Positions 42,391 to 53,280 of a DNA stretch of 64,000 bases are shown here, in pieces. Made by a program: the position numbers and the translations under genes. Position 1 is the first letter of the stretch, and the number at the start of each line of letters is the position of its first letter. Below the pieces are notes generated by a model. It was given only the letters and a program-made list of their open reading frames with translations, did no database searches and had not been told where the DNA came from. Source of the DNA: Sporomusa acidovorans (GTDB lineage Bacteria > Bacillota > Negativicutes > Sporomusales > Sporomusaceae). The DNA lies in contig NZ_FNAM01000002.1 in the NCBI RefSeq assembly GCF_900101845.1, positions 186,001 to 250,000 on the forward strand, given 5' to 3'.

Positions 42391-44238
42391 CTATTCTTTC
42401 AAATGATACGGTACGGTCGTTACAATAACGTTTTCCTTCCAAATAAGGGTGTTGCGCAAAAACCAGCCCGTCTGATTATGCAGCAGGCGGTGCCAGGATT
42501 TTCTGGTCTCAAACTCCGGAATAATGACTGTGATATAATCATCCGGCCCCTTTTCCCGGGTCTTCTTTTCGATAAAATGCAGCAGTGGCCGCATCAGTAA
42601 CCGATAAGGCGAACGGATAACCACCAATTCCACTCCCGGGTCCCATAATTTCCATTTTTCCATTACTTTTGCCGTCATTTCCTCATTATCAGACACATGC
42701 ACAGCCAGGATATTATCACCAATTGTTTTAGCGTATTTAATAGTTTCATAAACAACACGGGTTGGTGTGGATACCGGTACGATAACAATATGTTTTCCCT
42801 CAGGAAAAGTGGCGGCACCTTTTTCATAGCATTCCTCCGGCAAATGCAATTGATTGGCCAGAGAATTATAGTGGGCCTTAATAGCTTTGAATATATAGAT
42901 CATAATCGGAATGAACAACAAGATAATCCAGGCGCCATAGAGAAATTTTGTTACGGTAATGATCACAACAACTAAGCCGGTAGTCGCTGCACCAAGGCCA
43001 TTTAATAAAGCCCTGATCTGCCAACCGTTACCCCGTTCCCGGTTCCAATGTATTACCATACTGGATTGCGCAATGGTGAATGAGATAAAAACACCGATCG
43101 CATACAAAGAAATAAGATGTTCCGTATTTCCCTGAAACACGACAATGAGCGAAGCGGCCGCAACTGTAAGTAATATAATACCATTTGAAAATGTCAGCCG
43201 TTCACCACGGGTCGCCAGGTAACGTGGCATATAGCCATCCTTAGCGACAATCGAAAGCAGCACCGGCAAACCATTATAAGCGGTATTGGCAGCTAAATAC
43301 AGCACCAACATGGTCGTAATCTGAATATAATAATAGACAACCGAACGGCCAAAAATCTGCTCTGCCAACTGGGACATGGCCGTGACTTCAGACAACGGCA
43401 TTAAATGATAATGCATAACCAGAAAAGTAATACCCATGAACATAAAGCCCAAAATGCCTGCCATCCAATAGGTCGTAATTGTGGCATTGCGGGCCTCAGG
43501 CTGCCGGAACATCGGCACACTGTCAGCAATCGCCTCGACACCGGTCATCGAACTACAGCCATTGGCAAAAGCGCGTAAAATAATAAATATCATGGCCCAA
43601 TCAAGCTGCTGGCGAGCTAATGACTCGGGCGGCAGTAAAAAGGAAGATGCCGTAAACGCTTTCCAAATTCCTGTTAAAATCAAAACAATGACACCAAACA
43701 AAAAAGCATACGTAGGTATAACGAAAGCGTTGGAAGATTCCCGCACGCCTCGCAGATTTACCAGCATGAGGATGCCAAAAAGCACAAGTACATCAATAGT
43801 CACTTCACTCCCGCTCAACGCAGGAAAAGCGGAAATAATGGCAGCCGTACCTGCCGAAACGCTTACAGCGGCCGTTAATACATAATCGGCAAAGACTGAG
43901 CCTGCAGCCACCAGGGCAGGCATCTCGCCCAAATTTCTCTTGGCTACGGCATAAGCACCGCCCCCCCCGGGATTTGCCTTGGCAACCTGGACATAAGACA
44001 ATACTACAATAGCTAACAGGAACAGGATAAAGATGGCCACCGGTGCCATAAATCCGTAAGCCACCAATCCCGGAACAGCAACCAAAGTCAGCATAATTTG
44101 CTCCGGCCCATAGGCAACGGACGAAAGAGCATCTGAAGAAAATATGGACAATGCTTTCCACTTAGGGAGTTTTTCATGCGCCAATTCCCGATTGTGAAGT
44201 GGCTTGCCGATAAGTAACCGGCGAAGTACGCGCATCAT
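42391..44238 (-). CDS. kimA: KimA-type potassium importer (APC superfamily)
   Basis: A 615-residue transporter with about 12 helices in residues 30-450 followed by a cytosolic domain of roughly 150 residues. KALSIFSSDALSSVAYGPEQIM and VAKANPGGGGAYAVAKRNLGE are characteristic of the KimA/YdaO group of high-affinity K+/H+ symporters. The C-terminal region (IVIVPVSTPTRVVYETIKYAK) resembles a USP-like domain that can bind c-di-AMP. ATG at 44238 follows GGAGGCG. Upstream lie a ydaO c-di-AMP riboswitch with terminator and a second terminator, the same RNA that controls kimA in Bacillus. Confidence 0.92.
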   Translation of the reverse strand: MMRVLRRLLIGKPLHNRELAHEKLPKWKALSIFSSDALSSVAYGPEQIMLTLVAVPGLVAYGFMAPVAIFILFLLAIVVLSYVQVAKANPGGGGAYAVAKRNLGEMPALVAAGSVFADYVLTAAVSVSAGTAAIISAFPALSGSEVTIDVLVLFGILMLVNLRGVRESSNAFVIPTYAFLFGVIVLILTGIWKAFTASSFLLPPESLARQQLDWAMIFIILRAFANGCSSMTGVEAIADSVPMFRQPEARNATITTYWMAGILGFMFMGITFLVMHYHLMPLSEVTAMSQLAEQIFGRSVVYYYIQITTMLVLYLAANTAYNGLPVLLSIVAKDGYMPRYLATRGERLTFSNGIILLTVAAASLIVVFQGNTEHLISLYAIGVFISFTIAQSSMVIHWNRERGNGWQIRALLNGLGAATTGLVVVIITVTKFLYGAWIILLFIPIMIYIFKAIKAHYNSLANQLHLPEECYEKGAATFPEGKHIVIVPVSTPTRVVYETIKYAKTIGDNILAVHVSDNEEMTAKVMEKWKLWDPGVELVVIRSPYRLLMRPLLHFIEKKTREKGPDDYITVIIPEFETRKSWHRLLHNQTGWFLRNTLIWKENVIVTTVPYHLKE

Positions 44239-44274
44239 AATAGCGCCTCCAATTTCAGTATTCATTTTTAACGT

Positions 44275-44330
44275 GAAAAAACCGATACGAAATAGAGTTA
44301 GGTGCACCTAACCCCTGCTTCGCATCGGCT
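44275..44330 (-). terminator. Second, gene-proximal terminator in the kimA leader
   Basis: On minus GCCGATGCGAA pairs with TTCGTATCGG (one G-U) and is followed by TTTTTTC. The apical part contains the perfect palindrome GTTAGGTGCACCTAAC. It sits between the riboswitch terminator and kimA. Confidence 0.75.
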
Positions 44331-44445
44331 TACAAGTTACCCAGATTGTCTGTGCATCCCTGTCTGCCACGCTTGCTTTTTCACCAAAAAATATGCCCCG
44401 TAAAGTCCGAACTTCCGCTGCATCTTTCCCGGTTATTCAAATTTT
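44331..44445 (-). promoter_or_regulatory. Unassigned leader segment between two kimA terminators
   Basis: About 115 bases between the ydaO terminator and the second terminator. On minus it reads GCGGAAGTTCGGACTTTA, CGGGGCATATTTTTTGG, GGGATG and GGGTAACTTGTAAGCC. These pieces lie in the same order as the ydaO landmarks (GGAGGAACC, TTTTGGGGTTAAT, GGGAT, AGCTAACTTCGTAGGC) but are degenerate. It could be a diverged second aptamer or an unrelated element. Confidence 0.4.
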
Positions 44446-44449
44446 TATA

Positions 44450-44475
44450 AAAGAAAAAAGACCTGCCGGTCTTTT
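44450..44475 (-). terminator. ydaO riboswitch terminator
   Basis: On minus AAAAGACC, loop GGCA, GGTCTTTT and a continuing T-run directly behind the ydaO aptamer. Confidence 0.85.
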
Positions 44476-44477
44476 CG

Positions 44478-44606
44478 ACCCTTGCTTTAGCCTACGAAGT
44501 TAGCTGACGGGTAGGATGACAAGAGAAAAAAACATCCCTTTTGCCTGTTGGCAAAATTAACCCCAAAATGTGGTTCCTCCGCTTCCAATAGGGAACTCGG
44601 CCTTAT
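44478..44606 (-). promoter_or_regulatory. ydaO/yuaA c-di-AMP riboswitch
   Basis: On minus the conserved blocks are GCGGAGGAACC, TTTTGGGGTTAAT, a GCC...GGC hairpin, CCTACCCGTCAGCTAAC and TTCGTAGGC, in the right order and spacing for the ydaO family. Known function: c-di-AMP binding promotes termination and shuts off K+ import genes. A TATAAT box lies at 44659-44664 upstream. The target is kimA, matching the Bacillus arrangement. Confidence 0.93.
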
Positions 44607-44759
44607 ATTATTTGTATCAGTGATATCTTACTTCTTTTCCGATTAGACATAAAGTATCATTATACCTGCAGAATTCTTTCCTGATCTCGTTAAAAGGCAC
44701 AAAACCCTATTGCATGACCCGCTCGTAGTCCAGCGTGGTTTTGCATCAATTAGCTCACT

Positions 44760-52974: not shown

Positions 52975-53280
52975 AAATTTATATAAATGAATACAATATT
53001 CAAAAGTAATGATGGAGATATTTGGATAACTGCCATTTCAGAGAACCGGTGGCTGGTGTGAACCGGTAATGGAATTATACAAGCTGATCACTCCTGAACT
53101 GCAAAGCTGAAAATAGTAAGCTGCGCCGGATTCGGCTCACTGTGAGCGCAACCGTTACCTTGCTAGGGTTATTATCGACCTGACGAGATGCAGGCAGTTT
53201 CGCCTGCGAAAAAGGGTGGTACCGTAAGAAGAACCTCTTATCCCTTTAGGTCTTTGACTTAAGGGCTAAGAGGTTTTATT
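52975..53280 (+). promoter_or_regulatory. Isoleucine T-box riboswitch
   Basis: Stem I contains CAGAGAACCGGTGGCTGGTG and GTGAACCGG; the probable specifier is ATC (Ile) at 53087-53089. The core AGGGTGGTACCG is at 53212-53223, and TGGT suits a discriminator A. It precedes ilvD and a transporter gene. Uncharged tRNA-Ile should permit read-through. Confidence 0.9.
53233..53280 (+). terminator. T-box terminator of ilvD
   Basis: AACCTCTTA and CCCTT pair with AAGGG and TAAGAGGTT, followed by TTATTAATAAT; located between the T-box core and the ilvD ribosome site. Confidence 0.85.

Follow-up and report, generated by a model that had tools for sequence, protein, structure and literature searches.

In Bacillus, a c-di-AMP riboswitch has been reported for kimA and kdp (PMC6488665), and several kinds of leaders are known in which regulatory elements follow one another. 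For instance, Na+-I riboswitches occur in tandem with a subsequent c-di-AMP riboswitch, each with its own terminator, and the two together form an A AND NOT B gate (PMC9337991). Such tandem Na+/c-di-AMP riboswitches precede dapB in other bacteria (PMC9337991). Furthermore, 77 c-di-AMP riboswitch doublets have been reported (PMC9481103), and the rimP-leader combines tandem terminators with an antiterminator (PMC2965389). More generally, attenuator sensors are said to be diverse and to evolve rapidly (PMC2965389).

Here, we describe the leader of a kimA gene in Sporomusa acidovorans. It lies within a stretch of 64,000 nucleotides (RefSeq assembly GCF_900101845.1, contig NZ_FNAM01000002.1, positions 186,001 to 250,000), which we refer to as the window in the following. 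The gene is an open reading frame on the minus strand (42391..44238) and encodes a potassium importer: its product matches Pfam AA_permease_2, and the KimA structure 6s3k is its top solved-structure match (E 7.2e-158). The leader is found on the same strand, upstream of the ATG start codon at 44238, and carries a Shine-Dalgarno motif, GGAGG (44246..44250, minus strand), which was read from the sequence and is also present in the genus leaders. The same genome contains a second kimA-like gene with 64% identity (G000:C47:49912-51747).

The first regulatory element of the leader is an intact c-di-AMP (ydaO/yuaA) riboswitch aptamer (44474..44612, minus strand). The covariance model RF00379 assigns 82.1 bits to 44612-44474, compared to a gathering score of 38, and thereby places it within the family. 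It is followed by a terminator, T1 (44450..44480, minus strand), which was identified by folding, consists of a stem (44476-44455) and a U-tract, has a fold energy of -10.8 kcal/mol and recurs in the five leaders from the genus. In this region, a short hairpin on the 5' side (GGUC..GACC) can form in competition with it. The aptamer and its own terminator had already been proposed in an initial annotation of this DNA and are borne out by these values. Together, they presumably represent an ancestral c-di-AMP OFF switch operating as in Bacillus. In total, the genome encodes five c-di-AMP riboswitches, one of which, on another contig (L001 1501-1631), precedes the gene for dihydrodipicolinate reductase (DapB). 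In some relatives (loci L011, L013 and L015), a c-di-AMP riboswitch precedes a small gene, whose product in L015 matches Pfam MpsC; for L013 and L015, kimA follows in the genome a few hundred bases further along. The window also includes two T-box leaders, at 53000-53248 on the plus strand (95.1 bits) and at 33177-32938 on the minus strand (95.0 bits; gathering score 93).

Beyond T1, the leader differs from those of its close orthologues. The genus set comprises eight other genomes, five with a close kimA (86-90% identity) and three, one of them only 58% complete, in which no kimA match passed the limit applied. The distinct genus leaders number five rather than nine, four being shared with loci L036-L039 (S. 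silvacetica, S. ovata, Sporomusa sp. KB1 and a MAG). From the aptamer core to the matched start of the gene, there are 92-95 bases in the five orthologues and 265 here. In a DNA search with the leader against 60 relatives, the sister leaders match the aptamer and T1, and then directly the sequence preceding the start codon. Given that five close orthologues do not have the extra ~173 bases, parsimony argues for an insertion in the lineage of S. acidovorans, with approximate edges at 44271..44447 (minus strand). Judged by this comparison of sequences, the segment is best understood as a recent, lineage-specific insertion. An imperfect direct repeat at its edges, AAAAATTTGAATAA / AAAAATGAATAC, is suggestive at best as a trace of the event (its score was reached by 103 of 2000 shuffles). 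The initial annotation had made its reading depend on conservation of the segment in related kimA leaders. The absence from five of them counts against that reading in part; it points to a recent insertion, but does not establish that the segment is inert. Among the 61 kimA loci considered (some duplicated), certain distant ones also have long leaders, for example L117 and L126, and a strong terminator (-25.3) is found close to kimA in L124; where searched, the respective genomes (G035, G030 and G014) gave no convincing match to the insert.

The insert is rich in predicted structure. The 115 bases that follow T1 (44447-44333) lead to a second terminator, T2 (44275..44331, minus strand), with a stem of 23 base pairs (44331-44279) and a U-tract. 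Its energy of -30.0 kcal/mol was reached by none of 1000 dinucleotide shuffles of the segment, and its predicted stability is far beyond that of a chance hairpin, in agreement with the strong second terminator that had been noted about 115 leader bases after T1. By prediction, T2 thus shows the general hallmark of an attenuator, an intrinsic terminator ahead of a gene. Its tip (44297-44312) is a perfect 16-base palindrome, GTTAGGTGCACCTAAC. Two further hairpins were identified upstream by folding and shuffling: hp1 (44383..44433, minus strand; -17.5 kcal/mol, z -3.9, equalled by 1 of 1000 shuffles), which has a run of six U at its 3' end (44391-44386) that is paired inside the stem, and AT2 (44317..44376, minus strand; -21.1 kcal/mol, z -3.4, equalled by 5 of 1000 shuffles, for one sequence only). 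AT2 takes in the 5' arm of T2 as its own 3' strand and is therefore a candidate antiterminator; as it shares bases 44329-44318 with the lower stem of T2, the two are predicted to be mutually exclusive. With the T2 arm added, the upstream RNA becomes more stable by an amount equalled in 4 of 500 shuffles. Other measures of this pairing are ordinary: the number of T2-arm bases paired upstream was reached by 165 of 500 shuffles, and the energy of a simple T2-arm duplex by 203 of 500. When the nascent chain is folded, AT2 appears before the top of T2, and T2 then takes over. The predicted energies are -40.0 for the T2 state and -33.9 for the AT2 state, and this gap of ~6 kcal/mol would plausibly fit a switch; at equilibrium, over the whole leader, T2 is preferred with a pair probability of ~0.97. 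A search for a promoter-like site within the segment found none.

We then looked for relatives of the insert. The genome of S. acidovorans holds it once, all other matches being a palindromic self-match and short chance matches, which led us to reject a repeat or mobile element with genomic copies. A single-sequence covariance model found no convincing relative beyond the insert itself in 380 genomes of the class; weak matches at two places in one of them (G015; 27.9 bits, E 0.0092) are taken as chance across so many genomes. Likewise, a DNA search in 398 genomes of the phylum found nothing convincing, and we regard the 20-24-base matches in three of them as coincidental. In 28 genomes of the order, there were short matches only. 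A 17-base piece that overlaps the palindrome at the tip of T2, GGGGTTAGGTGCACCTA, occurs exactly once in the genus genome G006; the surroundings show no visible similarity, and we take the recurrence as accidental as well. Plasmids yielded one 25-base match and nothing else, phages yielded no match, and one exact pattern was absent from viral contigs; a plasmid or phage origin was rejected on the basis of this single plasmid match and the lack of phage matches. Because these searches yielded no related sequence, AT2 has no support from covariation or conservation. The literature searched on c-di-AMP/potassium tandems, K+ riboswitches, kimA leaders and riboswitches or c-di-AMP in Sporomusa likewise offered nothing on the segment.

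Our preferred, though tentative, reading is that the insert acts as an orphan transcription attenuator behind a c-di-AMP OFF switch, so that two checkpoints are arranged in series; we consider its chances to be slightly short of even. At the first checkpoint, the c-di-AMP-bound aptamer would cause termination at T1, by analogy with the known riboswitches. The second would have been gained through the recent insertion of ~173 nt, which appears laid out as an attenuator: following hp1, AT2 would be the first structure to fold in the nascent RNA, the top of T2 would form next, and the lower stem of T2 would have to displace AT2 for termination. If AT2 were stabilised, whether by a ligand or a protein or because strand exchange is slow, the polymerase would reach kimA; otherwise, it would stop at T2. 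By computation, we show that the segment is an insertion, that the first switch is intact and that T2 is strong, and we predict that AT2 and T2 exclude each other. That the second step is regulated is what we infer from the retained aptamer and T1, from the stability of T2, from hp1 and AT2, which surpass 999 and 995 of 1000 shuffles, respectively, from the gain through the T2 arm, which surpasses 496 of 500, from the passage of the nascent chain through AT2, from the energy gap between the two states and from the precedent of serial riboswitches with a terminator each (PMC9337991, PMC9481103).

On the other hand, a palindrome-rich insertion could produce such hairpins without any regulatory role, and passive insertion of a terminator is almost as likely as a regulated attenuator. 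The insert would then be a fragment, or a decayed mobile or palindromic sequence, and T2 a fixed terminator that reduces the expression of kimA or lets some polymerases pass, and there would be no second signal. Its lineage-specific occurrence and absence from five close orthologues are in line with this, as are the lack of conserved relatives and the imperfect direct repeat at its flanks, of the kind left by an insertion (103/2000 shuffles). However, this repeat is marginal, no decay is visible in T2 and AT2, both of which are well formed, and the presence of a single genomic copy, with none found elsewhere, means that there is no visible mobile family. It is because T2 wins at equilibrium, because two measures of arm pairing are ordinary and because the prediction uses a single sequence that we rate the attenuator and the passive insert as we do. 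A third explanation is leader-peptide attenuation, in which ribosomes on a 28-codon frame (44337..44423, minus strand; a weak candidate from ORF reading) would stop beside T2 and choose between AT2 and T2. The stop codon of this frame does lie a few bases ahead of the T2 stem, but an equally long ATG frame occurs in 18.65% of 2000 shuffles, there is no clear Shine-Dalgarno sequence, the start falls within the hp1 stem and the frame has no relatives in 60 genomes. We therefore regard this explanation as unlikely.

The remaining alternatives concern known and new sensor classes. According to the initial annotation, short pieces of the segment follow the order of the ydaO landmarks, which might indicate a diverged tandem aptamer. 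Natural c-di-AMP doublets are indeed known (PMC9481103), and there are look-alike pieces such as UAACUUGUAAGC, close to the end of the segment. Yet the similarity does not exceed the level of shuffled sequences: the local alignment score between segment and aptamer was reached by 193 of 500 and 137 of 500 shuffles, and that between segment and upstream leader by 255 of 500 and 203 of 500. A local ydaO covariance model was built on 17 aptamers, taken from this genome, its relatives and Bacillales. With all filters off, the segment (44447-44333) scores no more than 0.8 bits in this model, against 97.7 bits for the true aptamer, whose score is raised by its own inclusion in the model. A permissive Rfam scan (E up to 10) found no riboswitch there, its sole matches being weak sRNA or antisense families below the cut-off (E 0.038 and worse). 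The covariance models thus recover one aptamer in the leader, at 44612-44474, and none on the segment. Moreover, the repeat spacings (109, 141 and 336) do not fit a single duplication, and T2 and T1 are dissimilar. On the basis of Rfam, the 17-sequence model and the shuffled alignments, we rejected a second ydaO aptamer that diverged after tandem duplication, which is very improbable; the case also cautions that short look-alike pieces are poor ground for calling a diverged aptamer. Membership in the Na+-I (DUF1646) class is just as improbable. Its plan, two hairpins of which the second overlaps a terminator, is similar (PMC9337991), but RF03071 matches neither the segment (E up to 10) nor this site in the genome search, and exceeds its cut-off in 0 of 29 genomes; this class was therefore rejected as well. 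Nor does the segment match any other Rfam cis-regulatory family in the permissive scan. The suggestion of a different sensor with two-step control accordingly survives in its architecture, a terminator with a predicted, mutually exclusive upstream hairpin, but not in a match to any known riboswitch, and no evidence points to K+ as the sensed ion. A new class of RNA sensor, recently evolved or acquired and placed after the c-di-AMP riboswitch, which would respond to an RNA-binding protein, an osmolyte or an ion and permit kimA to be made only under both conditions, seems improbable to us; if real, the leader of this one lineage would represent a two-input gate shortly after gaining its second input.

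If T2 is regulated, as the attenuator reading holds, the kimA leader offers a natural case of a leader that gained a second checkpoint through one insertion, and the effect of this insertion would be directly comparable because sister species retain the one-checkpoint leader. If T2 is passive, the locus shows how a strong terminator landed before a potassium importer gene and was tolerated. In either case, the closest described systems share some of its features. With the c-di-AMP riboswitch of kimA in sister species and in Bacillus, it has the aptamer and terminator in common (PMC6488665), but here a second, unrelated terminator module follows further along the leader. In the Na+-I/c-di-AMP tandem, two independent terminators likewise follow one another, and c-di-AMP controls one of the two; there, a recognised Na+ aptamer comes first, whereas here a module without a class comes second (PMC9337991). 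The c-di-AMP doublets also have two terminators per leader (PMC9481103), but the second module described here is not a c-di-AMP aptamer. Lastly, the rimP-leader resembles it in its described architecture, with two serial terminators of which one has a competing structure (PMC2965389), but is a widely conserved family found before another gene. With a second module that is of no recognised class and, as searched, restricted to one genome, the kimA leader of S. acidovorans is thus an unusual, but not a categorically new, arrangement among these systems.
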